Of a stretch of DNA of 39,746 nt, positions 1,854 to 39,469 are shown piece by piece (within the stretch, counting starts at the first letter, position 1; every line of letters begins with the position of its first letter). The stretch lies in IMG/VR virus record IMGVR_UViG_3300010354_000207, positions 1-39,746 of that record; one strand, 5' to 3'. Made by a program: the position numbers and the translations under genes. This DNA is from a virus. The notes under the pieces are model-generated. The model was not told the origin of the DNA. It worked only from the letters and a program-made list of their open reading frames with translations, and searched no databases.

Positions 1854-3671
1854 TTAGAAAACAAAATTGATTTTTATATCAACATTCGGGTTTTTAATTT
1901 CGTAGATTTCATCATAAGCAACAAAAATTGTTTGATGTGCGCTGGTATCAATTTGTTTTGTCGAAGCATCAATAAAAGGCATGGTTGTTTGATTGACTGA
2001 ATAATTTCCACCGACCTTGTTGAATATCTTTATTTGGGTTACGTTTAATACGTTGCCGATATTATTTAATGACTCAATCAAGCTGGCCATGTAGATGTTG
2101 TTTCCAAAATACATTTGCTCATTGAAGAAGTCTGTTATTTGTTGGACGGCGGATTTAAGAATTTCAACCCTGTCAGAAAGTTTGTTAATATAGAGGGTAG
2201 CTTCAACTCCCACGTTAATAATTTTTCCATCACGAACCAATATGTAATCATTGATACTTTTAAATTTTGAAAGATATTCTGCTATGTTTGTTTTTAATGT
2301 ACTGGTAGAGTTGTTTGTCAGTTTTGAGTTTTGGTCAACACCGCAAATAACTATTTCGATTTTATTATCATTCTTTGCAACAGATGTGCGATAGGGAGAA
2401 CCGTAGTTGCCAGCCATCAGGCTAACCCTACTGTAATAATCCTGAAGAGTTATACATCTGTTTTGAGAAGCGAAATTATATTTGACAAGGTTTCTAAGTT
2501 CTGGTATCGAAAGTTCGTCTCTGCCACCGAGTGCTGGTAGTGGGTTATTTACTCTCAAAGAACCTTTTACTTGATTATTCTTGGTAGCGTTGGTTCCCAT
2601 GACGATAATATTGACCGTATTAACACTTGTCAATATGTTTGCACCAGCGTTCGTTCTAAGCCCACCGCCTGTTCGATACTTGATAAAAAGTGTAGTGTTC
2701 GACCTCGGAATTTGACCTAAACTAAGATTGTTGATTTTATTATCTAACTGTTCAAATAGCAAATCCGTGTCTGAAACATAATCACTAAAAAAAGATGTGT
2801 CCTCGACACCGTTTCCAAAACGGACAATACAGAAACCTTTGTCTGTATATTCAGTCATAAACTTTTTGTAGACCTTCTCCCATTTGCCGACCATAATGGA
2901 ATCATTATCTGTCATCATTTGAGGTTTAGCCATAAAGACTTCCTTTTCTGCAAGGGAATCTACTTCATACCAAAGATTGGCTGGGTCAGTCCATTCAAGG
3001 ATGGTAGGGAACTGATTGTAGTTCGTGCCATCCAAACTGATAATACTGTCAACACTTAATACGTCGTTGTCGGGTAAAACAATTTCCAAAAATGGTTTTA
3101 CCTCTTCTGGTGTAACAACCTTTTTAAAATATTTTGTAACACCATTGACTACCAATTCCCTTTTCGTGATAGTATATGATAAAATAGTGCCAGTGTTATC
3201 AATATTCGGAATAATTGTTCTGTTTGGAACGCCACTTTGTGAATAAGCAGAAGAAAAGTCTATATCGTTCAATGATTCAAAAAGCAATCCACCCCCAGAA
3301 ATTTGTGCGCCCCTTACAATCAAAGGACAATATGAAATATCAAAACTATCACCAAGCACTGGGACATCCACAGAAAAATCACATATTGTGATGGACGGCG
3401 ATTTGGATGGAATTTTTAACCCATAAGTTCTCGCAATCGCATATAATGACCTTCGTTCTTGTGCATAATCAATTTGTGTTTCTTGAAAAACCCTGTCAGT
3501 ATTAAAAGACAACATATCTCCAACCGCAGCGTTCAACTCCAAAAGCATCATACCAATGCTTGCATCATTAAAGTCGACATAGTAATCAGGGTAATTGGCT
3601 TTAACGAAGTTAATCAATTCACTGCGAATTGAACGGAAGTCACGGCTATAATAATTTATCTTTTTTTCCAT
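1854..3671 (-). CDS. Baseplate wedge protein, T4 gp6-like
   Basis: This 605-residue protein matches the T4 gp6/J-type baseplate wedge family, which joins neighbouring wedges around the central hub. The N-terminus has the family pattern: FVKANYPDYYVDFNDASIGM, followed by LLELNAAVGDMLSFNTDR (residues about 22-60). A C-terminal part carries the GRDELSIPELRNLVKYNFASQ and ITLQDYYSRV segments (residues about 390-425) typical of the gp6/J core, and the last 150 residues resemble the gp6 dimerisation region. The length is close to that of T4 gp6. It lies in a - strand structural block between the gp5-like gene and the large protein that runs off the window. The upstream gap is shared with a divergent nuclease-like gene. 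The motif GGACGGCG occurs twice inside it, antisense to the coding strand. Confidence 0.85.
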   Translation of the reverse strand: MEKKINYYSRDFRSIRSELINFVKANYPDYYVDFNDASIGMMLLELNAAVGDMLSFNTDRVFQETQIDYAQERRSLYAIARTYGLKIPSKSPSITICDFSVDVPVLGDSFDISYCPLIVRGAQISGGGLLFESLNDIDFSSAYSQSGVPNRTIIPNIDNTGTILSYTITKRELVVNGVTKYFKKVVTPEEVKPFLEIVLPDNDVLSVDSIISLDGTNYNQFPTILEWTDPANLWYEVDSLAEKEVFMAKPQMMTDNDSIMVGKWEKVYKKFMTEYTDKGFCIVRFGNGVEDTSFFSDYVSDTDLLFEQLDNKINNLSLGQIPRSNTTLFIKYRTGGGLRTNAGANILTSVNTVNIIVMGTNATKNNQVKGSLRVNNPLPALGGRDELSIPELRNLVKYNFASQNRCITLQDYYSRVSLMAGNYGSPYRTSVAKNDNKIEIVICGVDQNSKLTNNSTSTLKTNIAEYLSKFKSINDYILVRDGKIINVGVEATLYINKLSDRVEILKSAVQQITDFFNEQMYFGNNIYMASLIESLNNIGNVLNVTQIKIFNKVGGNYSVNQTTMPFIDASTKQIDTSAHQTIFVAYDEIYEIKNPNVDIKINFVF

Positions 3672-3717
3672 TTCAGAATTTAATCTATAAATATTTTATA
3701 TAAAAATCGGATTTTAT

Positions 3718-3749
3718 TTTGTTTTTTAATCTCCACAACATTATCTTTG
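3718..3749 (+). promoter_or_regulatory. Host-type (Bacteroidetes) promoter for the nuclease-like gene
   Basis: TTTG at 3718-3721 and TATCTTTG at 3742-3749, separated by 20 bases, fit the -33/-7 consensus TTTG-N~19-TAnnTTTG of the Bacteroidetes primary sigma factor. The ATG of the downstream gene is 20 bases further on. Confidence 0.65.
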
Positions 3750-3768
3750 CAGCTAAAATTTTAAAACT

Positions 3769-4281
3769 ATGAGCAATTTTCGTTACGAAGACTTTTTAAT
3801 GGCTGGAAAAGAAGCCGAACAAAAAATTATCAACACGTTTGGAAGATTCATCGCTGGAACCAGAGACGAAGATTTTAGAGGGATTGATTTGAAACTCACA
3901 TTTAATTTTGACGTAAAAAAAGCAAAAAAAATTAGGCGCGGCGATAGTATGCCAAATTATTTTAAAACATGGATAGAGTACAGGAATGTTAATGGTGGTT
4001 TAGGGTCTATATGTAAAGAAGATATAGATTTCTTCTTGATGGAGGGGTTAGCAGATTGGTTGGTGAAAAGCAGAATTGATACACAGAATTTATACAAAAT
4101 CAATGAAGTAGATTCGTTTGGAAATCCAAAACCGATTCTTTTTCTGGAAGATGCAACAAAAGTAGAGTTATATCAACCATATCAAAGGAAAGGCAGAAAA
4201 GATGTTATTATGCTGGTAGAGCTGAATAACCCGAATTGGCCCACAAAAATGTCTATTCCCAAACGGCTTTTTAACCAGTAA
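3769..4281 (+). CDS. Putative PD-(D/E)XK-like nuclease
   Basis: A 170-residue protein on the opposite strand to the surrounding baseplate genes. Residues 15-55 contain a Glu-rich helix (GKEAEQKIINTF), then DEDFRGIDLKLTFNFDVKKAKK. Spaced acidic residues followed by D-V-K are compatible with a PD-(D/E)XK nuclease core, and a following strand (TWIEYRNVNGGLGS) fits the fold. This is a pattern-level reading and not a firm family assignment. It has its own host-type promoter at 3718-3749, so it is probably expressed early and independently of the late structural operon. Its 3' end overlaps the convergent gp5-like gene by 11 bp. The lone, separately promoted gene within a late operon has the look of an inserted cargo gene. 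Confidence 0.5.
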   Translation: MSNFRYEDFLMAGKEAEQKIINTFGRFIAGTRDEDFRGIDLKLTFNFDVKKAKKIRRGDSMPNYFKTWIEYRNVNGGLGSICKEDIDFFLMEGLADWLVKSRIDTQNLYKINEVDSFGNPKPILFLEDATKVELYQPYQRKGRKDVIMLVELNNPNWPTKMSIPKRLFNQ

Positions 4282-5491
4282 GGACATTTTTATTTAACAG
4301 CCTTTGTAAATCAAAATTCAAAAGTTTTAACATTTGGTCATCTGGAACTGCCCTCATGCCAGGGTAAGGATGGACGTGACTTGAAACAACTTGACGTAAA
4401 ACATCAAGAAATTCAATTAATCTGTCTCCATAAGGGACAGGATGTGCTTTATCAGCAAGATTCAAGAAATCGGCATCATCAACCAAATCAGGTTGTTTTT
4501 TAACATTAAACTCTTTATTTAAATGGCTTACCAAAAATATTTTATCTGCTGCCATTAAAGAGGTAGAAAAATTCAAAGTTTTTTGAGTCAACTCCGTCAC
4601 CTCTGTACTCACATTGGTTGTCTCATTTGAATAAATCTTTGGCAGGCCATTTAAAGAAGAATCAGTGTACACCAATTCCCAATAAACATAGACATTTTGA
4701 AGACCAAGCAATTCAGATTTTAACTGCGCGGTCAATTCACTTTTCGTAGGTTTATTGTAGATTTGAGTGGAAATGATTTTATTTTTCTCCTTATCTTTTA
4801 TCTGTATTGTAGCCTTGGTATCTGCCAAAAAAGAGACAATAAACTGTGTCTTCGGGGCGATAAAAACAGGGGCCAACTTTGTTTTTACAGTTGCCTTTTT
4901 TTCAGACTCTACTGGAAACTTTAAAGTAATATAAGCTGGGTTGACCTTGTTAAAGGTTAACGGTTTATCATTTTCATGTGATCCTACTCTAAAAAGCAAT
5001 TGGTTGGCTTTCAAAAATATACTGCTATTATTCCTGCTGTTAATAGAAATATCTTCTTTGGAGGCGTACACGCCTTTAGATGCAGGTATGACAGAAGTTT
5101 TTTTCGGAGCCTTTATTGCCCCGTCAGGATAATGTGAATTGCTTTCAAGAGCAAACGGTTGATAATCGACATTGTATATATTAGAATGAACAACACTTAC
5201 CCAATACCTCAAATCTTTGGTATTTGAATCAAGGCTGGTGTATATGTTCCTGAACATCACCGTGACCCTTTCTCCAACCTTCGGCAAAGCCCTAAAAAAA
5301 GAGAAACTAAAAAGCGGTACGCAAACAGGTAAATCATCATTCGACACTGTTTTATCCAATTCAGGAATCCTGACCTTGATAACCCCATTTTCTTCGCCGT
5401 CCAACACACTAACAACCTCACCCTCCCAAATGACTTTGGAATAAGGTTTTTCAAATTTACTACTGCCATATTCAGTTCCGATTAATCTCAT
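4271..5491 (-). CDS. Baseplate hub/spike protein, gp5-like OB domain
   Basis: A 406-residue protein with an N-terminal OB-fold domain of the gp5/VgrG type at residues about 22-110: WEGEVVSVLDGEENGVIKV, RIPEL, a loop, LPVCVPLF, and ALPKVGERVTVMF ending in RYWVS. A second segment (EDISINSRNNSSIFLKANQL, residues about 148-168) resembles the repetitive part that follows the OB domain in T4-type hub proteins. The C-terminus has SSHVHPYPGM, a His-rich turn found in other phage baseplate proteins. No lysozyme domain like that of T4 gp5 is visible, so any tail-associated lytic activity must come from another protein. It overlaps the convergent nuclease-like gene at its 3' end and is 6 bp downstream of the next structural gene. 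Confidence 0.7.
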   Translation of the reverse strand: MRLIGTEYGSSKFEKPYSKVIWEGEVVSVLDGEENGVIKVRIPELDKTVSNDDLPVCVPLFSFSFFRALPKVGERVTVMFRNIYTSLDSNTKDLRYWVSVVHSNIYNVDYQPFALESNSHYPDGAIKAPKKTSVIPASKGVYASKEDISINSRNNSSIFLKANQLLFRVGSHENDKPLTFNKVNPAYITLKFPVESEKKATVKTKLAPVFIAPKTQFIVSFLADTKATIQIKDKEKNKIISTQIYNKPTKSELTAQLKSELLGLQNVYVYWELVYTDSSLNGLPKIYSNETTNVSTEVTELTQKTLNFSTSLMAADKIFLVSHLNKEFNVKKQPDLVDDADFLNLADKAHPVPYGDRLIEFLDVLRQVVSSHVHPYPGMRAVPDDQMLKLLNFDLQRLLNKNVLTG

Positions 5492-5497
5492 GTTAAT

Positions 5498-5905
5498 TTA
5501 TTGAATAATGCCTTTTCCCGTTGCGTAATTAGATGTAACACCTTGACCCACAACAGGCAAAACACCTCCAGCAAGACCTGTTACTGTTACAGGAACACCT
5601 GGGGGTATAACCACAGTCACTTTTGCGTTTTGTATTATATGTTCGACGACTGTCTCTACAATAGTGTATATCATTTTTTCCATTATAGATTCCGTGCCAT
5701 CAGGTAATGGTCCGATTGGAACACCAACTTTTTGACTTTTAATTATTATCTCCTTGGTAATATCTCTTGCAGATAACCCTTTTTTGTTTTCACTGCCAAT
5801 CAATATAAGGGGAGAAGGGATATTGGGTGGACGACTGCTGCCACCATCCAAAATCGAGTTTAGGAAACTTATGAGGGTTTCTATGTTCGTTAAATCTTCG
5901 TTCAT
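5498..5905 (-). CDS. Hypothetical structural-cluster protein
   Basis: A 135-residue protein without a recognised family. The C-terminal 50 residues are rich in Val, Gly and Pro (VTVVIPPGVPVTVTGLAGG), as is common in short baseplate or tail components. The rest is mildly hydrophobic with predicted helices. Its ATG overlaps the stop of the preceding gene in an ATGA arrangement, pointing to translational coupling, and it is followed after 6 bp by the gp5-like gene. By position it is probably a baseplate or tail accessory protein made late in infection. Confidence 0.55.
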   Translation of the reverse strand: MNEDLTNIETLISFLNSILDGGSSRPPNIPSPLILIGSENKKGLSARDITKEIIIKSQKVGVPIGPLPDGTESIMEKMIYTIVETVVEHIIQNAKVTVVIPPGVPVTVTGLAGGVLPVVGQGVTSNYATGKGIIQ

Positions 5906-7215
5906 CTGATAAATCCAGCCAAGGAGGTTATTTGTAAAACATACAACTTTAATTGTTCCTGTTGCTTTTTTATATTACTTTCTGCAATCAACTTTGTCAA
6001 CTCCCTTGTGATAATCGTGACCAAATATCTGACAACTGCACCCAGAATATGTTTTTTTACTATATCGAATATAAAGTTCTTATGTTCTTTGAAAAACCCA
6101 ACAAAGCTGACATCCACATCAACTTTCTTAACCATTTTCCTAAACAACTTTATAAACAAGATTTGTTTGGGTGAAAATAATTTTAAAGTTATTGACTTGG
6201 TTATATTCCTGAAAAACTCCAAGAATATATTATTTTGATAAGAGCCTTTGTCGGACGGCGAAACTGTTGGGGAGGTCTGGTTTATCAGGTAATCGAAATT
6301 GACATTATAAATATCTTCGTTATACTGGCTGACATTTACGAGGTCGTCAACAAAGCCTTGCAAGAGGTTATAATCGTATTTTACATAACTTAATTCACAG
6401 TCAACATATTCAAAATAACCTTCTTTCTTTTGTTTAATTCTTCTTTCAATTTCTTCATCGTCGAAACTATAAAAAGAATCATCTACCGTAACATCATCGA
6501 ATATTTTATCAAGAAGGATATTAAATTGCTCTCTATTTTTCAATCCTCTTTTTGAAATCGCATTTGAAGCTAAAGAACTTAGCGTACCAAAAATACCATC
6601 GACAAAATCAGAGATAATTGTAACATCATTGAAAAATTGAACTTTGCTGAAATAAGCATTGACAAAATCATAAACAGTTTTTCCCTGAAAACTTGGGTCC
6701 AGTTTTATGTAGAAATTTTGATTGGAATAACTAACCAAAAGAATATCGTTCCAATTATACTCAACACCTGGATTATTGATTGCCTGATAAAGCAATTTAT
6801 TCAGGTTGTTTTCATAGTCTTCATAATAAAACTTTCCGAGTTCACTATCTGGGTCAATCTTCAAGACTTCAAAAAAATCAATTTCTTTGACACTAAAACT
6901 AACTCCTGTAAAAAACTCATCAGGTATTTCAACGTCGACAGAACAGAATATATAATCGACAATATTCTGTTTGAAATATGAAATCAAATCCGCAGATAAA
7001 GACTTTAATTCAGTTAAAAGAAAAAGTTTAAATTCATCTTTAACCTTTTGCCCCCCAAAGAAAATCCTGAATAAATCCAGAGTAAACTCTAAACTATTCC
7101 TCGGTTTAGAAATTGAGGGGAGAGAATTAGTAAACGAGATATTAGTGAAAGCCTCGTTTGTAATCTTCAACCCCTCAATTTTACCCAATAAAATTTGTTT
7201 GGGGTCAATCGGCAT
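5902..7215 (-). CDS. Hypothetical structural-cluster protein (437 aa)
   Basis: A 437-residue acidic protein rich in Phe, Tyr, Asp and Asn. No family was recognised. The C-terminal third contains long amphipathic helices rich in Lys, Ile and Leu (HILGAVVRYLVTIITREL, residues about 385-405), ending in a Gln-rich helix. It overlaps the upstream gene by 11 bp and the downstream gene by 4 bp, so the genes from 7612 down to 4271 read as one transcription unit. The neighbours suggest a baseplate or tail component. One GGACGGCG copy (6253) lies antisense, in the Ser-Pro-Ser register. Confidence 0.55.
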   Translation of the reverse strand: MPIDPKQILLGKIEGLKITNEAFTNISFTNSLPSISKPRNSLEFTLDLFRIFFGGQKVKDEFKLFLLTELKSLSADLISYFKQNIVDYIFCSVDVEIPDEFFTGVSFSVKEIDFFEVLKIDPDSELGKFYYEDYENNLNKLLYQAINNPGVEYNWNDILLVSYSNQNFYIKLDPSFQGKTVYDFVNAYFSKVQFFNDVTIISDFVDGIFGTLSSLASNAISKRGLKNREQFNILLDKIFDDVTVDDSFYSFDDEEIERRIKQKKEGYFEYVDCELSYVKYDYNLLQGFVDDLVNVSQYNEDIYNVNFDYLINQTSPTVSPSDKGSYQNNIFLEFFRNITKSITLKLFSPKQILFIKLFRKMVKKVDVDVSFVGFFKEHKNFIFDIVKKHILGAVVRYLVTIITRELTKLIAESNIKKQQEQLKLYVLQITSLAGFIR

Positions 7216-7612
7216 TTAAAAGTAAATTGTTTTTCAGTGCTTGTCCTCTCAAGAACTCCAAATCTTTTTCTGTCAAAATTACATCATCCGATGTTTCATT
7301 TTCCGAAACATCTTCCACAGCAGTTCTTTGTGACATTATAGTCGTACCATAGAACTTTACCAGTTCGATTTTGAGTTTGTTATTGGTGTTGATAATGTCA
7401 AGTGCTTTATTGTTAAGAGCGTCCAAAATCTCTGTTTCCTTCAATGTCCTGACAGTATCTTCTTCCCCTTCGACTTGTCGTCTTTCGGTTATTTCATCTT
7501 CTCTTTTACGGATAAATGAAAGTGCCCTTTTTTCCTGACGTTCAAGGTCAATAAAAGTTGTCTGAATTTTTTCTAAAACGCCGTCCAACGACGCAGGTAT
7601 TTTGGATTTCAT
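7205..7612 (-). CDS. Hypothetical charged coiled-coil protein
   Basis: A 135-residue, highly charged protein. Residues about 8-95 are predicted to be mostly helical with heptad-like spacing (LEKIQTTFIDLERQEKRALS and following), suggesting a coiled coil. No family was recognised. It is the first gene of the - strand structural unit, 25 bp after the sigma-factor gene, and is preceded by a TATAAATA late-promoter-like box at 7625-7632. One GGACGGCG copy (7579, - strand) encodes Asp-Gly-Val near the N-terminus. Confidence 0.5.
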   Translation of the reverse strand: MKSKIPASLDGVLEKIQTTFIDLERQEKRALSFIRKREDEITERRQVEGEEDTVRTLKETEILDALNNKALDIINTNNKLKIELVKFYGTTIMSQRTAVEDVSENETSDDVILTEKDLEFLRGQALKNNLLLNAD

Positions 7613-23737: not shown

Positions 23738-26700
23738 ATGCTTGGTAATAAAATTAATTTGAGGCTCGAAGACATTGAAAATCTTCTTCATGGTAAAGAC
23801 CCAGAAGAAGGTATTCGATATATTGATGCCAATAATTTCTCCCCAGAAGTTAAGGTTTTTATCAGGAGACCAGAAGATGAAAAGGTATCAATCAAAAAAG
23901 ATACTTTTAGACCCTTCCTTTGGTTCAAAGGTTTCGATTTTGATAAAGATTTCACTTGGGAATACTTTGCAATACCCGAATCTGATTACAACGAATTAGA
24001 TCACTGTATTTTATACAAAGGTGCCGTTCATTTTCTTGACGAGAATCTGAAAGTTGTATGTCAAACCTATGACGGCACTGAAGTGATTGTAAAAAGATTT
24101 TTGTCTGATGTAGAAGACAGGAGGAGGCTTTGTTATTCCAAAATGAAGGAATATAACATCGAGATTGAAGAGAAGACAACGAAGATAGACAAGAACAAGA
24201 ATATTGCGCGTCTTGAAAATGGTTTCAAGTATCTGGTTCATATAAATCCGCCAGATGAACCCAGACCATATACCAACCCTTTTATTGGCTATACAAAAAC
24301 AGGTTATGTTAAAAACATAAACGGTTCATATAATAACCTCCTTGATTTTTTCATGGAAGGTGGTTTGGATATATGGAAGAAATCTGGAGTGTTTTTGGAC
24401 GGCGAAAAGTTTGAAAATTTTTGGTCAGAGGGTACACCATTCCAAAAGCTCATGTTTTTCTTTGGCTTCCCAATGAAAAGCAATCTTTTCACTTTGGTAG
24501 ATGAAGGGGAAGCAGATGACGATATTTTCAACACATACGACGATGACAGGAAACAATATCTTTCGATTGTAAACTTTGATGAATTTTTAGACCTCACATT
24601 CAAGATTTTCAATGAGAAGTTGAAAATGACGAATGTATTTGAGTTTTATGAAAAGAAGATAAAAGATAAAGATTTAGATTTTCTTAGGAAGCATTCAAAA
24701 GAGTTATATTCAGCTCTTAACCTGAAAGTAGATAAAATCAAGTTCCAAGACCTTCTTGATAATGAATACACATTCGATTCAAGGAAAGGATTCAAGAACC
24801 TGAATAACACTTTTATTGAACACGGTATTGATGTCTTTTACGGCGAAGAACGTCTTTTCTTTGCAAATACTGCGCTTGAGCAGTATATGATCCAATCAGG
24901 CAAAAGGCTTTTCAAAGGATTTGAAGAATACACTGAACTTCGTATTATGACTATGGACATAGAAACGAAGGCACAGGAGGCTTTTGCATATCGAAATGAC
25001 GCTGCACTTCACGCCACTATGGGTAGGATATTCAAAATCGGTATCTATTGTAACAATGGATTGGAAGTGGTTTTGAATGCCAGCAATGATAAAGAGGAGA
25101 AAGAAATTATTGAAAAGTTCTTTGAAATTATGATGGAAACAGACCCAGACCTGTTTCTTACCTACAATGGAGAAGGTTTTGATTTTCCGTTCATTATCAA
25201 AAGATATGAACTGTTAAATCGTTTGAGGGATGAAGACGCTGCATTAAATGCTTTGAGGCATTTGCTAAAAGATTACTATTCCAAATTCGAGGGTGTTTAT
25301 ATTTCCAACAAAAACACCCTGACAAGAAGGAATGGAAACTTAAAGGTTGGTGGAAGCAGTGAGAAATATACACAAACAAATATCCTCGGCATAAATCTGT
25401 GCGATACCATGTTCGCTGTAAAGCGTGCTTCTGCTATCAACAAACAAATACCTAACTTTAAATTAAAAGATAATGTTAAGTTTGCTGGTTTGGCTAAACC
25501 GAATAGGGTTTATGTGGACGGCGGAAAAATCGGGGAAATAGAAAATTCGCCGTCCACCTTCTACCTAAACCCATCAAACGGACATTACATAAAATACCAC
25601 AAAGAAATAATTTTTGAGAGAGATGAATACAAAGAAACCAATATCAAGAAAAAAGCTGCAACAACTTTTATTTACGGCGATGAAAATGTATTATACACAT
25701 TCGATGCAAAGTCTGATGGGAGATTTATGCAGACCTGTGAAAATACGATTGAATTTAAAGCAGACGAAGATGTAGAAATATTCTTTGAGAGGCTTTACAG
25801 TAGATTCAAACAATATGATAAAGTCTGCTTTCAACATCAAAATTATGTCGGTAAGTGGCTTGAAAAAGAAGACCCACAAAAGTTTTCTACGCTTAAATTC
25901 CTCTTGAAAGATTTAAGGGAAAATCTGGATAACAAGTCTTTCTTCTACCCTGAAATCAATTTTGAAGAATATATTGAAACAACAGGTGCAGACATCATAA
26001 AAAGGTATCTGATAGACGACCTTTGGGAGACAGCCAAACTGGATGAGCATTACAGTCAGGCGACATTCCTGATTTCAAAGTGGCTCCCGACATCATATCA
26101 AAGGGCCGCTACTATGGGCGGTGCTACCGTTTGGAAATTGCTTTTGACCACGTACTCTTACGAATACGGACTCGCTATACCAGAGTTCGACGAACCAAGG
26201 GAGTTTAGTGGAGGGCTTGTGGCGTTAATATCTTGTGGGTATCATGGAAAGTCTTTTAAAGCAGACTTCTCCTCACTCTACCCTGCGGAGTTCTATGTCC
26301 ATGTGGATAGCCCTGAAATAGATTTGTTGGGGGTTTACAAGCTCTTTATGTACTATGGTTGGTCGACACGTATCAAGTACAAACAGTTGATGAATGAACA
26401 CAAGGAAAAAGGTGAAATGTCGCTTAGTAAAAAATACGAAGTAAGGCAGTTACCTATCAAAATCCTTATCAACAGTTTCTATGGTATGATGGGTGCAGCA
26501 GGTGTTACACCATTTGCTGACCTCGTTGTTGCGCAAGCGGTAACTTGCTCTGGAAGGCAACACCTTCGACACCTTATCAAATGGTTTACAAAGAAAGGGT
26601 TTTACGCTACCATCGCACATACAGACGGTGTATTCTTTTCTATTAACAAAGCAGACTTATCCTACAAATATATTGGCAAGGCAATCAACTGGCTTGTTAA

Positions 26701-27841
26701 AAAAGACAAGGAATATGAAGGTATTGCAGCTTATGTGGCAGAATACAACGACACCTTTATGAAAGGTATCATGGGTCTTGATATTGACGAAATCGTGGAA
26801 TCAGTAATCAATTTCTCCAAAGGAAACTATATCTACCTCAAGAAAGCCAAAAACAAAAAGACTGGTGTGGAGGAAGACAAATTAGAGATTATTGGAGGTG
26901 CAATCATTAAAAAAACGCAGTCTGAATATATCACGGAGTTTGTGGAAAAAGAAGTTGTGAAATTGATGAGAGGTGATGCACTCGGTTTTCTTAATGCTTA
27001 CTGGGATTATATCAGCCTGATACAAGACAAGAAACTCAATGTGAACCTTATCACATCGAAAGCTAAAATCAAGAAAAGCAAGAATGAATATCTGGAACAT
27101 ATCAAAGGTGTTAACAAAAACGGACAGCCATTGAATAGACAGGTACACATGGAAATGCTTATAAACGCTGGTGTAGATTTTGATATGGGTGATACAGTCT
27201 ATTATGTCAACACTGGAGCGAATGAGAAAGATAAAGATAGTATGAGTGTGAATACTACTTTTGCTACCTGTGACATTTCAGATGTTAATATTAACGACAT
27301 TACAAAAGTTATGGCTACTAATGACAGGAACCGTATCAAAAGTTATCTTGTCAGAATTTATGAGCAAGGTTATTTGACTGTCAATAGTAAGTGTATGGAC
27401 GGCGATTTGATTGCATTTTTGGATGATATTGCGACTTGGAAAAACATCAAATTCAAAACAAAGACCTTGAAGAAAGGCGTGTTTGTAGAATTTATCAAAA
27501 CAGAGTTTATCATAAATTGTACATTGGTTGACACTTACAAGTCAGACAACTTTATCAACTACAATAGCGTACTCTACATAGACAAATTCAATAAAGCCGT
27601 CCACCCACTATTCGTAGTCTTTAAACCTGAATTGAGGGAGAAATTAATGATTAAGGATAAGAGAGACAGACCTTTTGTGTTGGAATCTGATTTGGAACTC
27701 ATCAACAGTATTCCATTTGCAGGTAAAGAAAAGAAGACACAAATGAGCTATGAAGAAGTGATGGAGATAACAAAAGAAGAAGATGAATATTGGAGCTTTG
27801 TTAAAATAAGCCCAGACGATTTCAATGTCGAAAGAGCCTAA
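23738..27841 (+). CDS. Family B DNA polymerase
   Basis: A 1367-residue replicative DNA polymerase, about half again as long as T4 gp43. The exonuclease domain has Exo I IMTMDIETKA (residues about 404-413) and Exo II TYNGEGFDFPFIIKRYE (about 474). YLIDDLWETAKL (about 765) is a candidate Exo III. The polymerase domain has motif A FKADFSSLYPAEF (about 840), motif B KILINSFYGMMGAAG (about 910) and motif C TIAHTDGVFFS (about 958-968). Motif C reads H-T-D-G where most family B enzymes have D-T-D-S, leaving one of the two usual Asp. Long extra segments lie at the N-terminus, between the exonuclease motifs, and after motif C. It has its own host-type promoter, so it is probably early. Its stop overlaps the convergent phosphatase gene by 4 bp. 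It holds four GGACGGCG copies, two forming an inverted pair. Confidence 0.92.
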   Translation: MLGNKINLRLEDIENLLHGKDPEEGIRYIDANNFSPEVKVFIRRPEDEKVSIKKDTFRPFLWFKGFDFDKDFTWEYFAIPESDYNELDHCILYKGAVHFLDENLKVVCQTYDGTEVIVKRFLSDVEDRRRLCYSKMKEYNIEIEEKTTKIDKNKNIARLENGFKYLVHINPPDEPRPYTNPFIGYTKTGYVKNINGSYNNLLDFFMEGGLDIWKKSGVFLDGEKFENFWSEGTPFQKLMFFFGFPMKSNLFTLVDEGEADDDIFNTYDDDRKQYLSIVNFDEFLDLTFKIFNEKLKMTNVFEFYEKKIKDKDLDFLRKHSKELYSALNLKVDKIKFQDLLDNEYTFDSRKGFKNLNNTFIEHGIDVFYGEERLFFANTALEQYMIQSGKRLFKGFEEYTELRIMTMDIETKAQEAFAYRNDAALHATMGRIFKIGIYCNNGLEVVLNASNDKEEKEIIEKFFEIMMETDPDLFLTYNGEGFDFPFIIKRYELLNRLRDEDAALNALRHLLKDYYSKFEGVYISNKNTLTRRNGNLKVGGSSEKYTQTNILGINLCDTMFAVKRASAINKQIPNFKLKDNVKFAGLAKPNRVYVDGGKIGEIENSPSTFYLNPSNGHYIKYHKEIIFERDEYKETNIKKKAATTFIYGDENVLYTFDAKSDGRFMQTCENTIEFKADEDVEIFFERLYSRFKQYDKVCFQHQNYVGKWLEKEDPQKFSTLKFLLKDLRENLDNKSFFYPEINFEEYIETTGADIIKRYLIDDLWETAKLDEHYSQATFLISKWLPTSYQRAATMGGATVWKLLLTTYSYEYGLAIPEFDEPREFSGGLVALISCGYHGKSFKADFSSLYPAEFYVHVDSPEIDLLGVYKLFMYYGWSTRIKYKQLMNEHKEKGEMSLSKKYEVRQLPIKILINSFYGMMGAAGVTPFADLVVAQAVTCSGRQHLRHLIKWFTKKGFYATIAHTDGVFFSINKADLSYKYIGKAINWLVKKDKEYEGIAAYVAEYNDTFMKGIMGLDIDEIVESVINFSKGNYIYLKKAKNKKTGVEEDKLEIIGGAIIKKTQSEYITEFVEKEVVKLMRGDALGFLNAYWDYISLIQDKKLNVNLITSKAKIKKSKNEYLEHIKGVNKNGQPLNRQVHMEMLINAGVDFDMGDTVYYVNTGANEKDKDSMSVNTTFATCDISDVNINDITKVMATNDRNRIKSYLVRIYEQGYLTVNSKCMDGDLIAFLDDIATWKNIKFKTKTLKKGVFVEFIKTEFIINCTLVDTYKSDNFINYNSVLYIDKFNKAVHPLFVVFKPELREKLMIKDKRDRPFVLESDLELINSIPFAGKEKKTQMSYEEVMEITKEEDEYWSFVKISPDDFNVERA
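25514..25557. repeat. Inverted pair of the GGACGGCG motif inside the polymerase gene
   Basis: GTGGACGGCG at 25514-25523 and CGCCGTCCAC at 25548-25557 form a perfect 10-bp inverted repeat with a 24-base A-rich spacer. One arm encodes Val-Asp-Gly, the other Ser-Pro-Ser-Thr, so the symmetry is not a by-product of protein sequence. Confidence 0.8.
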
Positions 27842-32646: not shown

Positions 32647-33822
32647 TTATCCGTCGCAACTTAAACAATTTGGATCCATAGCACTTGAAGCAATATCACC
32701 ACGCAAAACAGATTCGGTTCGCATATAATATAAAGTCTTTACACCTTTCTTCCATGCTTCCAAGTGAACCTGATTAATCCATTTGGGGTCTGCTGTACTT
32801 GGAAATGCAAGGTTCAAAGAAACAGCTTGGTCAATATATTGCTGCCTGATACCCGCCTGTCTTACCAAATCCAATTGGTTAATTTCTTTAAAGGTCTTAA
32901 AAACATCTTTAATTGAAACACCGTTTTGTGTATATTCTTCCTCTGTTATCTCTGACCTTTTTGTAATCACGCCGTTATAATAACACCAATCATCCAAGAA
33001 AGAAAGGTTTTGAACAGAACCCAAGTCTTCTAAAATCTGGTCCCAAACCTCTTTGGTGTCTTTACCGATAAGTCTCAACACTTTTTCAAGCTCTGGATTC
33101 TTCCTGATAAAAGTCCCCTTTGCCGATTGTTCTGTATAGACATTTGCGGCCCAAGGTTCGATTCCAGCACTTACGTTTCCAGATAGTTTACTATTCGATA
33201 CTGTGGGAGCTATTGCACGGAGGTGTGTGTTTCTGTAACCGAAATCTTTACACCAAAGTGGTTCACCGTATTCTTTAGCCATATCCATACTTGCCTTTTC
33301 AGTTTCAAGTTTCAATTGACTGAAAATTTTTCTTGTATGAAATTGTGCCTGAAGACCCTCAAAAGGAATGCCTCTTTGTTGGAGGTAGGTATGGTAGCCC
33401 AATGTGTTGTGAATTACATATTTTATTTTACCATTTGAACTTGTAAAATAGTTATGGTGTTCATCAACAGTTAAGTCGGCATATTCAATATCAATATTTT
33501 TGGGTTGCCATATCTCGCTAATTGTATTCAGTGTATTGTGTTCACTAACCATTACATTTCCGACAATTAACTCGTCCGCTCTTACATAATCCAATTTACC
33601 TTCAGATGTCATTACAAGCGTTGGATGCCAAAGTGAAGTATAAATAATACTACCACAATCCAATTTAATTGCAATTTGATCTTTCACTTCAACAATTGGT
33701 TTGTGTGTTGCAGTAATCATCCTAAAACAACTTGTTCTTTTATCTACATCATAAGACAAGACAAAATCACCAACTTTAGCATCTTCAATTGCTATTTCTT
33801 TTGTTATTATTTTAATTTTCAT
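32647..33822 (-). CDS. nrdA: Split-intein C-half fused to C-terminal ribonucleotide reductase alpha
   Basis: This 391-residue frame starts at an ATG that overlaps the end of the N-half gene. Residues 1-139 are intein: AIEDAKVGDFVLSYD, the block B region IIYTSLWHPTLV with T-x-x-H, block F DIEYADLTVDEHHNYFTS, and block G KIKYVIHN, followed by Thr as the first extein residue. Residues 140-391 are the C-terminal NrdA part: TLGYHTYLQQRGIPFEGLQA, GYRNTHLRAIAPTVSNS, and the final DPNCLSCDG with the redox Cys pair that thioredoxin reduces. Protein trans-splicing with the N-half would give a reductase of about 605 residues. It lies upstream of thioredoxin and a terminator. Confidence 0.82.
   Translation of the reverse strand: MKIKIITKEIAIEDAKVGDFVLSYDVDKRTSCFRMITATHKPIVEVKDQIAIKLDCGSIIYTSLWHPTLVMTSEGKLDYVRADELIVGNVMVSEHNTLNTISEIWQPKNIDIEYADLTVDEHHNYFTSSNGKIKYVIHNTLGYHTYLQQRGIPFEGLQAQFHTRKIFSQLKLETEKASMDMAKEYGEPLWCKDFGYRNTHLRAIAPTVSNSKLSGNVSAGIEPWAANVYTEQSAKGTFIRKNPELEKVLRLIGKDTKEVWDQILEDLGSVQNLSFLDDWCYYNGVITKRSEITEEEYTQNGVSIKDVFKTFKEINQLDLVRQAGIRQQYIDQAVSLNLAFPSTADPKWINQVHLEAWKKGVKTLYYMRTESVLRGDIASSAMDPNCLSCDG
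33406..33822 (-). mobile_element. C-terminal half of split intein
   Basis: Codons 1-139 of the downstream nrdA piece. They carry intein blocks B, F and G and the terminal His-Asn before Thr. The first residues (MKIKIITKEI) appear to repeat the strand that follows Cys1 in the N-half (SKIEIV), placing the functional split very close to the N-terminus, between blocks A and B. Confidence 0.75.
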
Positions 33823-34114
33823 GTTCTTTATTTTTAGAAAATATATCCTTTAGTTTGTTTTTTAAAGTATTTGAAAAACCTATAATCCAACCATCATCTA
33901 AATAAGAATTTAAGTTGTCTGGTTTAATATATTTATGTTTTCCATCTTTACTAATACAAATATTTTCAACAGGTGTAGAAGACTTTTCTATTTTTATTAA
34001 ATCGGCGACTTTTATTTTTTCGCCGTCCACTTCAATAACATCATTTACATTGTATGAAACACCATCAATTTCAACTGATTCAACTATTTCGATTTTTGAA
34101 CCTTTCGCAACACA
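33812..34114 (-). mobile_element. N-terminal half of split intein with homing-endonuclease-like tail
   Basis: One hundred codons from Cys1 (CVAKGSKIEIV, block A) to a stop. No block B is present. Residues about 50-82 of this half (ENICISKDGKHKYIKPDNLN and SYLDDGWIIGF) match the G-x-x-K-x-I-x3-x-L-x2-Y-L-x2-G-W-x2-G pattern that accompanies HNH-type homing endonucleases as a DNA-binding (NUMOD-like) motif. No nuclease catalytic motif is visible. Confidence 0.65.
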
Positions 34115-34333
34115 ACCAAGCCCCAATGCGCGACCCTTTTCAGCAGACCTGACAGCATTTTCAAACCCTTTCATGTTCTTTGCTTTTTGGATGAACTCTT
34201 CCAAAACGCCGTCCAAAAACCAAGTCGCAGTATAAATCAAATCAGTATCTTTCCATTCATCATATTTTGCAAGATTCAAAGAAGACAGACAACATACAAA
34301 AGAATGCTGTTCATCAGTGTGCAGGGTGATTTC
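33812..34333 (-). CDS. nrdA: nrdA exon 2 with split-intein N-half
   Basis: This continues exon 1 (34587-35426) after removal of the group I intron. The first 73 codons are NrdA: EITLHTDEQHSFVCCLSSLN with the second active-site Cys, then DLIYTATWFLDGVLEEFIQK and ending EKGRALGLG. The remaining 100 codons are the intein N-half and stop. An ATG inside the intron at 34384 could start an unspliced reading, but the residues it adds are intron sequence. The stop overlaps the start of the C-half gene (ATG within the last codons, +1 frame), suggesting coupled translation so both halves are made in similar amounts. Confidence 0.82.
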   Translation of the reverse strand, partial: EITLHTDEQHSFVCCLSSLNLAKYDEWKDTDLIYTATWFLDGVLEEFIQKAKNMKGFENAVRSAEKGRALGLGCVAKGSKIEIVESVEIDGVSYNVNDVIEVDGEKIKVADLIKIEKSSTPVENICISKDGKHKYIKPDNLNSYLDDGWIIGFSNTLKNKLKDIFSKNKEHEN

Positions 34334-34586
34334 CATTTTGTTATCCCACAAGCTCTTTATCTTGTGGCTCTTATGGTTTCCCATAAGTTCAGACTATATC
34401 ATCATCTCAATGAGATGTCGGGCACTCGTGTCAGCTTCATCAGTGTTCTACTGGTGTGCTGTTAGTCGTTGAACCTTCCACATATCCCTACGTGGCTTGG
34501 CTGCTGATTAGCATATCTAAAAGACTTAGCCTCCCAGCAATTCACCCGATTTTCCGTTTATATCACTACAAACGGCTCCAAAATTT
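34334..34586 (-). ncRNA. Self-splicing group I intron in nrdA
   Basis: A 253-nt intron. P1 is exon GCTCT paired with IGS GGAGC, giving U:G at the 5' splice site, which follows the T at 34587. P2 is CCGTTT/AAACGG. The P and Q strands are AATTGCTGGGAGGC and AATCAGCAGCCAAGCC. P7 is formed by R GTTCAACGACTA and S TAGTCTGAAC. P9 is CTTATGG-GAAA-CCATAAG, followed by a CCACAAG/CTTGTGG hairpin. The intron ends in G at 34334. The 3' exon GAAAT can pair with ATTTT of the IGS loop (P10). It has no internal reading frame of size. Removal restores N-I-C-S-E in frame. Confidence 0.92.
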
Positions 34587-35426
34587 AGAGCAGATATTCG
34601 TCATGTGAACCTTCAATCCATTCTTTTTATACATATCTGGATTTGCTTTGTTCACATTACCCTTAAACATAATATACGGTTCTCCTGTGGCCTTTCGCTT
34701 TTGGAGAAGTTTACCCCATTTCCTTCTTGCTTCATTATCTCCGTCTTCCAAAGCCCTCATAAACTTGTCGCTGATTATAACACAATGGTGAAGGTTTAAT
34801 GACTGTCGGTTTACATCACCTTTCGGTTCCCTGATTTCCAAAAAATCTTCAAAATCTTTGTGTTCGATTTTGATATTAACGGAAGCGGCACCCCTGCGGA
34901 CAGCACCTTGATTTGTAGCGAGAATGGTAGAATCGTAGATTTTACAAAACGGCACTATACCATCAGAAGTGCCGTTATTTGTGATTTTTGAACCAGCAGG
35001 TCGAATCATATTCACACCGATTCCAACACCACCGCCATTTTTTGCAAGGAGCATCAATTCCAGATTCTTGGAACCGATTTCATAAATACTGTCACCGACA
35101 TCAATACCGAAGCAACTAATCGGAAGACCCCTGTCAGTTCCAGTATTTGCCAAAACAGGTGTTGCAAGATTCAACCAACCCTTCCAAACATAATCAAAGA
35201 ACTTTGTTGCCAAATGCGGTTTTCCAAGCCTTTTGGCTACCGCTGTACAAACCCGCCAATAAGCGTCTTTAGGTTTTTCACCCTCCAACAAATATTCTTT
35301 GGATATTGTTTTTATATAGACTTCAGTGTTTCCCCATTCTGGGAAATCAACACCTACTTCCCAACCGAGGCCATAACCATGATTGATTGACCCATCTTCG
35401 AGATATTGAGATACTTGTTTGCTCAT
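34587..35426 (-). CDS. nrdA: Ribonucleotide reductase alpha subunit, exon 1
   Basis: Exon 1 gives 280 residues of class I ribonucleotide reductase large subunit, which reduces ribonucleoside diphosphates to the deoxy form. Visible parts are GWLNLATPVLANTGTDRGLP followed by ISCFG (first redox Cys), LLAKNGGGVGIGVNMIRPAG, DGIVPFCKIYDSTILATNQG, RRGAASVNIKIEHKDFEDFL and the end HMTNICS. Reading on without splicing adds six residues and a stop. No ATP-cone domain is present at the N-terminus, so the activity-regulating allosteric site found in many NrdA proteins is missing. The intron cuts the catalytic N-x-C-x-E motif between Ser and Glu. It follows nrdB by 31 bp. Confidence 0.92.
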
Positions 35427-36496: not shown

Positions 36497-37882
36497 TTAT
36501 TGCTTTGGGTTCTTTTCATAAGCAGAAGTTACATTGTGGTCTTCGACCTTAATCTTAACCCTGCTATTATCAAATTTGACATCATCGAATTTTACACGTC
36601 CAGAACCAAGGCGATTTTTCCAGATATTGATATTTGCTTTTCCACTCAATATCTGCTCCTCATCCTTTCCAATCGTCATCATAACGTGTGTTATTTTTTG
36701 AAGGTCTCCAGAACCAGAAAGCATACTTGGTTCAAGGTCACGGATGCCGTGTGTACCTTTTTTACCTTGGAGCAATACCCAAGCAGCGCAATTGAAATTC
36801 GTTTCTGAAATAGCGTCTTCAATCTTTCTTAAAATTTCTGGACCAGCAAGGTAATCTTTATCACCGTAATCGTTCTTGTCACCTTTGATACATTCAAGAT
36901 AATCAATAATGATTAAATCCAATTTATACCCTTGCACCTTTTCGACGTGAAACAACGCTTGCTCGATATTAGACCAGTGTGTGTCGATTGCATCGAACTT
37001 TTTTACAATAAATTTGCCACCAGCTTCTTCACCTTTACGCAAAATACTCTTGCAGTGGGTTTCAATGATATGTTTGTTTTTAACATTCATTGATTCATCA
37101 ATTGAAAATCCACTCCAGTTGGCTTGCAATTTTGAGAAAAGGTCGTTTTGTGTTCCCTCAAAAAACGCATAAAAGACTGTTTTACCCTCAAGAAATGCTG
37201 TGGTAGCGATGACAGCAGAAAAGGTTGTCTTACCTACACCTGTACCAGCACCAACTAAAATAAGGTCTCCACGTGAAGGACCACCCTTGATTGCATCATC
37301 AAAAGGTTTTCCAAGCCCTGTCGGTATCGGAATGCGGGTTGTATCATCAACCAACTTAAAAGTCTCGCTACTGATAAGCAATGGCTTTTTGGAGGTATCA
37401 TTAATCTCGATTGCCTTTCTTACTTTTTCTACCGCAGAATCACCATCCTTAATTTTTCCTTTTTTCCATTCGTTTTTAACACTCTCGACAATATGAATAA
37501 AATTCTGTTGCTGAATGAAGTTCCTCGCATTATCTTTTACGTGGTCTGCATTCTCTATTACAACGTGTTCAATATCGTTGAGGAACTGAAAAAACACTTC
37601 CCTGTCTGTACCATACTTGGCAGAATATATTTCCCTGATGGTGTCATAAAAGGGGATACTACGGTATTCCACGTAGTATCCCTTGATAATCTCAAGAAGT
37701 GTTTTTGAAAATGGAAGGGAAAAGTGTTTCGGATTTAGAATGCCTATCATAGAGACACCATATTCAACGTCCCTATATAGTTCTTTTCCCTTCAACAAAC
37801 GCCGTCCAATCAACTGGTTAAAAAACTTGATTTCAAATTTTTCACCAAATACCCCCAAATCTAATGTCTCATTCAAATCCAT
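36497..37882 (-). CDS. Replicative DNA helicase, DnaB/gp41-like
   Basis: A 461-residue RecA-fold helicase of the DnaB/T4 gp41 type, which unwinds DNA ahead of the polymerase. The N-terminal helical domain (residues 1-160) is followed by PTGLGKPFDDAIKGGPSRGD, Walker A LILVGAGTGVGKTTFSAVI (residues about 208-226), Walker B LDLIIIDYLECIKG near 300, and GSGDLQKITHVMMTIGKDE near the Gln/His motif H4. The C-terminus is charged. No separate primase is seen in the window. It heads the nrdB-nrdA genes and follows an unknown gene by 20 bp. A GGACGGCG copy (37800) encodes Gly-Arg-Arg, the only use of that register. Confidence 0.9.
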   Translation of the reverse strand: MDLNETLDLGVFGEKFEIKFFNQLIGRRLLKGKELYRDVEYGVSMIGILNPKHFSLPFSKTLLEIIKGYYVEYRSIPFYDTIREIYSAKYGTDREVFFQFLNDIEHVVIENADHVKDNARNFIQQQNFIHIVESVKNEWKKGKIKDGDSAVEKVRKAIEINDTSKKPLLISSETFKLVDDTTRIPIPTGLGKPFDDAIKGGPSRGDLILVGAGTGVGKTTFSAVIATTAFLEGKTVFYAFFEGTQNDLFSKLQANWSGFSIDESMNVKNKHIIETHCKSILRKGEEAGGKFIVKKFDAIDTHWSNIEQALFHVEKVQGYKLDLIIIDYLECIKGDKNDYGDKDYLAGPEILRKIEDAISETNFNCAAWVLLQGKKGTHGIRDLEPSMLSGSGDLQKITHVMMTIGKDEEQILSGKANINIWKNRLGSGRVKFDDVKFDNSRVKIKVEDHNVTSAYEKNPKQ

Positions 37883-37902: not shown

Positions 37903-38457
37903 TTAACGATAAAGTTCTTTACTATTAACAGAAAAAGTATTTACAGGTTGGAAACGCTTTTTGAACCTGTTATAGTACTTGTTCATAGAAAGGGTTTCTT
38001 TGAGTGTCGTCCGAATACCTGCATTGATTTCATTATCTTTCCATATAGGGATGATGGAGAGGTTTTGGACGGCGAAAAAATCGTTGGCGTAGATTTCGTG
38101 CTCATACAATACACGGACTTCTTTGTTCTGGGAAAGTGCACCGTTTTCCCTAACAGCAGCCTCATGGTCTACAAGTTTGAAAATGTAACGGGAATTTGGG
38201 TCTTGCTTGGGAATCGGCTCGTCAGAATGCTTGTAAAGCATATCCTCCGTGATTCGACGCATATAGTCTTGAAAAATATTGGTAATCTTACCAAAACATT
38301 CGACTATCTGCGTAGAATTTTCAACTGCCAAGTCTTCATTACCGAACTCTTTAAGAGGGGTAAAAAAGTTAAGATTGGTTAATTCTTGGGCCGTCCTTCC
38401 GTTGTGATAAATCACATGGAAGGTAAACCTTGCCTTAAAATCTTTTTGTTCAGTCAT
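37903..38457 (-). CDS. Hypothetical replication-cluster protein
   Basis: A 184-residue protein with no recognised family. It has a beta-rich start (ARFTFHVIYHNGRTAQEL), a helical centre and a basic end (NKYYNRFKKRFQPVNTF). It lies between the 5'-3' exonuclease (8 bp overlap) and the helicase (20 bp gap), so it is probably expressed with replication genes and could be a helicase loader or accessory protein by position. Nothing in the sequence proves that. One GGACGGCG (38067) lies antisense. Confidence 0.5.
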   Translation of the reverse strand: MTEQKDFKARFTFHVIYHNGRTAQELTNLNFFTPLKEFGNEDLAVENSTQIVECFGKITNIFQDYMRRITEDMLYKHSDEPIPKQDPNSRYIFKLVDHEAAVRENGALSQNKEVRVLYEHEIYANDFFAVQNLSIIPIWKDNEINAGIRTTLKETLSMNKYYNRFKKRFQPVNTFSVNSKELYR

Positions 38458-39469
38458 TTTTTTTAATTTTGTTTGTTAATAAAAAAGGTGAAGTAAAATT
38501 TCTAACATCCCCATCAAAATCAAGGTCTGTTCTTATTTGTTTGTAGATTTCTGTGCCTTTTAGTTTAGCATAAAACTCTTTCAAATCCACAGGCAAAGAT
38601 ACGATGTTTTTTATTTCTTCAATACAATCTGGTGAAATAAATTTTTGATTATTCAAATTAATCAAAGTCTCCGCCAGATTATATCTCTCATCATCTTCCA
38701 AGAAATCTACCAAAATCTGAAGCCTCTTGCCTTTTTTTCCTTTGGATTGTTGTTCAAGACAATATTCCAAAAGGCTCCCCCTTTCATACGGACGTTTTAT
38801 AAACATCGGGATTTCATTCAGGATAGATTTTTCAGAAAATCCTTTGGCTCCATAGATGTTATCAGATTCATCTCCGATAATAACCTTCCTCAAAAGAATA
38901 TTCTTGTGGGTCTGCTCGAAATAATATTCAAAGTTTTCACTGTTAATAAGAAGATTCTTTGGGTAGATGTGGTCTTTAACCTGTATCCTGTTGAGATAGT
39001 AGATAAAAACATTTTTGTCAATTAACTGAAAATAATCATTGTCATTCGACAGTATCAATATATTTTCCTTGTCTTTATTCTGTCTTACATATTCGGCAAT
39101 ACAATCATCCGCTTCGACAAAAGGATGTTCATAAGAATTGATTCCCAACATTTTCATAATGGAAATTATCATATCTTTTTGCTGATAATACGGGTCAATT
39201 CCATTAAAAAACCTGTTTCTCTTTTCTTTGTACGGTTCATAAATCTCCTTTCTCAATTTACCGCTTTCTGGGCCATCCCAAAAAAGAATGGTTTTATAAA
39301 TCTGATAAGTGTGGTTGTTTACATTCTCATTCAACAACCCCCTTAACTTCTTCATAAATCCCCAAACGGCATGGATATTATGCTTGTGGAGGGCGTAGGA
39401 TTTTACGCCCTCGAAGCATATTTTATAGAGATTCATTGCATCAACAATTAATACTGCCCTATTCTTCAT
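38450..39469 (-). CDS. 5'-3' exonuclease, FEN/T4 RNase H-like
   Basis: A 339-residue flap/5'-3' exonuclease of the PIN-like FEN superfamily, which removes RNA primers and 5' flaps. The acidic metal-binding motifs are in order: VLIVDAMNLYKICFEG (Asp10 region), LFWDGPESGKLRKEIYEPYK, FVEADDCIAEYVR, NILILSNDNDYFQLI, and VIIGDESDNIYGAKGFSEKS (helix-hairpin-helix entry). Overall length and motif spacing fit T4 RNase H and related phage enzymes. It overlaps both neighbours by 8-11 bp and begins the visible replication run leading to helicase, nrdB and nrdA. Confidence 0.9.
   Translation of the reverse strand: MKNRAVLIVDAMNLYKICFEGVKSYALHKHNIHAVWGFMKKLRGLLNENVNNHTYQIYKTILFWDGPESGKLRKEIYEPYKEKRNRFFNGIDPYYQQKDMIISIMKMLGINSYEHPFVEADDCIAEYVRQNKDKENILILSNDNDYFQLIDKNVFIYYLNRIQVKDHIYPKNLLINSENFEYYFEQTHKNILLRKVIIGDESDNIYGAKGFSEKSILNEIPMFIKRPYERGSLLEYCLEQQSKGKKGKRLQILVDFLEDDERYNLAETLINLNNQKFISPDCIEEIKNIVSLPVDLKEFYAKLKGTEIYKQIRTDLDFDGDVRNFTSPFLLTNKIKKND

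Follow-up and report, generated by a model that had tools for sequence, protein, structure and literature searches.

Joint replacement of the first motif C aspartate and the second KKxY lysine in a long phage family B DNA polymerase

The window, a 39,746-base stretch constituting an IMG/VR virus record, carries one complete family B DNA polymerase (PolB) gene, in which the first aspartate of motif C is replaced by histidine (HTDG) and the usual second lysine of the KKxY motif by glycine (SKGNY). Comparison with phage and bacterial relatives revealed that loss of the aspartate is accompanied by loss of the lysine in three variant lineages; what is new here is that the motif C substitution appears, from the aligned sequences, to be one half of a pair. 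We consider it probable that the protein serves a tailed phage as an active replicative PolB with proofreading, and that its probe of the minor groove, an Asp-Lys pair, was exchanged as a whole. The features of the gene are as follows.

23738..27841, + strand: family B DNA polymerase gene, open reading frame with ATG start, 1367 aa
24242..24778, + strand: insertion, residues 169-347, upstream of the exonuclease domain, mostly helical in the predicted model
24956..24970, + strand: Exo I, DIETK
25163..25183, + strand: Exo II, YNGEGFD
25604..25966, + strand: insertion block, residues 623-743, four gap-facing runs, in the exonuclease-polymerase motif interval
26006..26020, + strand: Exo III, YLIDD (Y-x3-D)
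26261..26284, + strand: motif A, ADFSSLYP, with D843 at the metal-ligand position
26459..26485, + strand: motif B, KILINSFYG
26618..26629, + strand: motif C, H961-T-D963-G, residues 961-964 (D-T-D-G in shorter relatives)
26816..26830, + strand: KKxY motif, S-K1028-G1029-N-Y1031 (SKGNY, residues 1027-1031), with Gly for the usual second Lys
27368..27490, + strand: insertion block near the C-terminus, residues 1211-1251, two gap-facing runs

An earlier note on this DNA had described an HTDG motif C beside orthodox motifs A and B in a PolB of 1367 residues, and the open reading frame, Pfam matches (DNA_pol_B_exo1, E 4.4e-11; DNA_pol_B, E 1.3e-10) and alignment all bear this out. The protein belongs to phrog_262, the PHROG that also holds T4 gp43, and agrees with the family at motifs A (DxxSLYP) and B (KxxxNSxYG) and at the second aspartate of motif C; the acidic residues of Exo I, II and III (DIE, NGEGFD and YLIDD) are present, as would be expected of a proofreading PolB. 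An AlphaFold model of residues 340-1367 (mean pLDDT 84.9, and 90-91 in the blocks holding motif C and KKxY) adopts the PolB fold, and its closest predicted structural resemblance is to archaeal PolBs (Foldseek E 1.9e-21; VIA Z 19.9). The model of N-terminal residues 1-406 gave no match in the PDB at E <= 0.001, and the polymerase DNA gave no megablast match to E. coli genomes. Residues were scored as extra when they faced gaps in at least 80% of 50 DTDG relatives, with precise edges that depend on the alignment; they comprise residues 69-83, 102-128, 169-347, 411-421, 504-522, 623-743, 1037-1045 and 1211-1251. The protein is longer than its DTDG kin. T4 gp43, against which insertions had been noted previously, is a less apt yardstick, since it (898 aa), which shares the order of exonuclease then polymerase motifs, forms a very long branch in the 58-row tree described below and keeps DTDS and KKRY intact.

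In the alignment, HTDG occupies the same column as the DTDG of the shorter relatives (about 890-1000 aa), and T-D-G is invariant across 57 aligned proteins while the preceding residue varies, identifying HTDG as the true motif C. A sequencing error is excluded because HTDG recurs on a separate contig at 99% identity (L001) and in relatives at 65-68% identity, with the histidine encoded by CAT in L001, as in the window, but by CAC in L005, L006 and L007. The histidine is kept in all relatives at 65% identity or above, and a second set of long HTDG proteins (L104, L105, L113 and L117) was found at 32-35% identity. The dN/dS ratio against L001 is about 0.02 (dN 0.0024, dS 0.124); the polymerase is under strong purifying selection. 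Most PolBs carry two aspartates (DTD) where the window and 7/7 rows of its clade carry HTD, a difference that does not exclude family B membership, because exceptions reported as active are described (PMC7544198). Two candidates were rejected. An apparent NTDG in L112 (positions 2938-7341 of a 362-kb virus contig) proved to be D, then an intein, then TDG; as the intein splits D from TDG inside motif C, L112 is a DTDG enzyme and was excluded from the counts. E851 (SLYPAEF), considered as a stand-in carboxylate, was dropped, the sister HTDG proteins L104 and L113 having Thr at that position.

The HTDG proteins, seven after removal of redundancy, fall into a single phage clade (H), supported at 100/99 in a 58-row tree and 100/98 in a 35-row tree, both built with columns 961 and 1029 excluded. 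The nearest phage records, 10 matches among 50,697, are all from Salinibacter phages at 23-28% identity, and the suggestion in the earlier note of a distinct phage polymerase branch is thus supported. The phylogeny and survey of motif C variants that it had called for yielded the H clade, the DTDG relatives and a further large clade with VTDG and RINY (V; L123-L202). A scan with the long VTDG proteins matched 124 loci, of which 80 were kept, on contigs of up to 365 kb; these read VTDG wherever a text pattern located motif C, except for ITDG in L168 and L196, and the pattern was not found in the open reading frames of L185, L199 and L202. V-clade support was 100/100 in both trees, and this clade groups with the D-type proteins rather than with H (93/94 and 97/93 in the 58- and 35-row trees, respectively); a single origin of the H and V clades is borderline disfavoured, not quite rejected (AU p 0.053). 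One scan of genome contigs added a single relative, L116. Before counting, near-duplicates (90-92% identity), V-set fragments shorter than 790 aa, L112 for its intein, the partial L014, and L176 and L205, whose contigs were already represented by other loci, were removed. The V clade also includes L193, whose open frame of 1590 aa runs about 350 aa beyond its kin, and L185, whose PolB lies in two open reading frames (418 and 819 aa) with motif C gapped in the alignment; the gene may be broken in this region.

About 50 alignment columns were found to distinguish HTDG from DTDG proteins, one of them being the second KKxY Lys, changed to Gly; the V clade has Ile at this column (1029), and the two ITDG proteins, L168 and L196, have Asn (Ile-Asn, not Val-Ile). 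Across a 123-row non-redundant set of phage and reference proteins, the residues at columns 961 and 1029 were Asp and Lys in 53 rows, Val and Ile in 60, His and Gly in 7 and Ile and Asn in 1; of the remaining two rows, that of L185 is gapped at motif C and that of T4, whose protein has DTDS and KKRY, came out misaligned. As an independent test of the pairing, a PolB search across a single bacterial phylum (296 genomes) gave matches in 107; among the best 30 loci by score, 20 had DTD with the lysine kept and 10 had Ile with Asn, Thr or Gln. We label these ten G2-like from their motif C; Ile replaces the first Asp in each, and the lysine column has Asn (7), Thr (2) or Gln (1). An 87-row alignment was then compiled from alternate D rows and one in three V rows of the phage set, the 7 H rows, 1 I row, 4 references and the 30 bacterial loci. 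All 49 D-type rows have both Asp and Lys, and all 38 variant rows lack both (7 His-Gly, 20 Val-Ile, 1 Ile-Asn and 10 G2-like); no main-type PolB sampled breaks the coupling. The D-type rows have 84 columns conserved at 85% or more, and of these just 961 and 1029 are lost from each of the three variant lineages, 'lost' meaning that the D-type residue occurs in no more than 10% of the rows of a lineage. The rows represent lineages, three of them variant, and not independent events. Many columns besides 961 set the H clade apart from the D clade; of these, loss extends to the V and G2-like proteins at 1029 alone.

The coupling is not universal in family B. All five plasmid polymerases compared, which we take for piPolBs, have lost the first Asp (TTDG in 4, VTDG in 1) yet keep Lys (4) or Arg (1) at the KxY lysine, a position set by eye against QKTY of phi29, with Arg replacing Tyr. 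A phmmer search of the PDB with the S. epidermidis plasmid polymerase found nothing. For a test of crAss-like PolBs, the 97,065 of 102,679 bases of crAss001 covered have no PolB annotated; a DNA polymerase I is annotated.

Published structures offer a possible physical basis for the pairing. Lys593, in the KKRY of an evolved Pfu polymerase, probes the minor groove at the penultimate base of the primer, and a salt bridge with Asp541 sets its orientation; the stated equivalents of this lysine are RB69 Lys706 and phi29 Lys498 (PMC3733885). By our reading of the numbering, Asp541 would be the first motif C Asp, KKxY lying at 592-595 in Pfu and 591-594 in Tgo, and DTDG at 540-543 in Tgo (PMC3733885, PMC7763228). 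Metals A and B of Tgo are coordinated by D404 and D542, and D540 is not among the ligands named for these metals, although the same source terms both D540 and D542 catalytic and shows both touching the primer-end nucleotide (PMC7763228). An RB69 review has D411 and D623 binding the catalytic ions (PMC3564110), and a catalytic triad of D411, D621 and D623 is spoken of elsewhere (PMC3792054). The loss of one Asp from motif C, as previously remarked, is real, but the residue lost is not a metal A or B ligand in the archaeal structure as described in PMC7763228, and a loss of activity does not follow.

With the salt bridge and metal ligands taken from these structures, we infer an active enzyme as follows. 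In ordinary PolBs the first motif C Asp would form a salt bridge with the second KKxY Lys and so direct this lysine, within the minor groove, at the penultimate base pair of the primer. The window enzyme retains the metal-binding aspartates D843 (motif A) and D963 (motif C), but both members of the pair have been replaced together, by His961 and Gly1029; in other lineages the same pair has become Val-Ile or Ile-Asn/Thr/Gln. Minor-groove checking would then be weaker or done otherwise, perhaps by His961 itself. A replicase role is suggested by 10/10 related phage records (5 from the H clade, that of L112 and 4 from the V clade), each with one PolB protein and no match to PF00476 (PolA) or PF07733 (PolIII); these records may be incomplete, which leaves room for another polymerase beyond their ends, and the two Pfam models may miss divergent enzymes.

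Other accounts of the two columns were weighed against an exchange of the pair as a unit. His961 could have acquired a function of its own, binding metal or shuttling protons in place of the aspartate; its presence in 7/7 clade rows despite the synonymous CAT/CAC change would fit, as would the catalytic role suggested for a motif C His in B2/G2 enzymes (PMC7544198). That histidine sits two residues earlier in G2-like proteins, however, and the occurrence of Val, Ile or Thr at the position of His961 in other lineages indicates that no ligand is needed there, in keeping with the absence of Tgo D540 from the named ligands of metals A and B (PMC7763228); we therefore regard such a role as unlikely. 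Equally doubtful is that columns 961 and 1029 changed jointly through shared ancestry only and without structural coupling. The small number of independent lineages, the many further columns that differ between the H and D clades and the Lys or Arg retained by the plasmid polymerases would all favour it; against it, just 2/84 conserved columns are lost in all three lineages, and the equivalent residues are salt-bridged in a solved relative (PMC3733885).

Least probable, in our estimation, is a degenerate polymerase site, with the protein acting as an exonuclease or structural factor while the phage relies on another enzyme for its replication. Archaeal B2 enzymes, which lack the first Asp, were long taken to be inactivated (PMC7390963, PMC7544198), but they act in vivo (PMC7390963) and piPolBs are reported to be highly efficient (PMC7544198). 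Strong purifying selection moreover acts on a protein that retains motifs A and B, D963 of motif C, K1028 and Y1031, and the ten related records have a single PolB each with neither a PolA nor a PolIII match.

The preferred reading, an active enzyme with an exchanged Asp-Lys pair, can be set beside known systems. Loss of the first motif C Asp is described for B2/G2, piPolB and PolB_SITDG, and both MotifC and KxY are noted to diverge in the crAss-like and HelPrimPolB groups (PMC7544198). Archaeal B2 and bacterial G2 enzymes (PMC7544198; Dpo2, PMC7390963) resemble the window in having lost the first Asp and kept the second, but their Exo I is not conserved and Exo III is missing (PMC7544198), whereas the window has all three Exo motifs; the ten G2-like bacterial proteins share the loss of the KKxY Lys but replace the Asp with Ile instead of His. 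PolB_SITDG of cyanobacteria and algae, compared by its published description, also replaces the first Asp, with a hydrophobic residue in contrast to His (PMC7544198). The piPolBs of pipolins share the loss of the first Asp, but the five putative members, keeping K/R, lack the joint loss. The T4-like/PolII-like clade is marked by the Trp of 'GWN' in Exo II (PMC7544198), where the window reads YNGEGFD. G3 PolBs of Salinibacter phages and bacteria have a TDG-type motif C as in the window, but in the form E[VA]DTDG with the KKxY Lys kept, compared with IAHTDG and KGNY; the conserved motif C Glu of EpsilonN/G3 (PMC7544198), which we place as in EVDTDG, is absent from TIAHTDG of the window.

The neighbourhood of the gene includes two further replication genes.

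36497..37882, - strand: DnaB-like helicase (PF03796)
38450..39469, - strand: 5'-3' exonuclease (PF02739)

The window also encodes ribonucleotide reductase and two baseplate wedge proteins, the latter suggesting a contractile tail. The ribonucleotide reductase large subunit spans three open reading frames (32647-35426, - strand), two of them separated by a group I intron (RF00028, 34370-34597, 108.6 bits) and two, slightly overlapping, sharing a divided HINT/intein-like sequence that looks like a split intein. A second, stand-alone exonuclease (PF10108; 15329-16210, - strand), related to the PolB exonuclease domain, coexists with the polymerase and its intact Exo motifs.

Where a PolB lacks the first Asp of motif C, it has been regarded as inactive or searched for a substitute carboxylate (PMC7544198), a stand-in Asp having been proposed for B2 and a catalytic motif C His for B2/G2 (PMC7544198). 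In a literature search that left most subscription journals outside it, no statement of the joint Asp-Lys loss or of HTDG phage polymerases was found; the altered KKxY (SKGNY) beside HTDG is an addition to the earlier note. The joint loss would give a simpler account, in which a salt-bridged, DNA-sensing pair is dropped together, and its recurrence suggests that the Asp may position a DNA-sensing Lys and not do chemistry. More tentatively, the main PolB group might not use its first motif C Asp for catalysis at all; the residue would be half of a replaceable minor-groove sensing pair that phages swapped for His-Gly or Val-Ile, yielding apparently sole replicases with a different primer-end check, in which His961 could read the minor groove through space freed by Gly1029; different fidelity or tolerance of modified DNA might then follow. 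The joint loss makes the role of the 'catalytic' Asp testable in a model PolB, and the two phage clades, H and V, would offer naturally occurring polymerases that check the primer end in an altered way.
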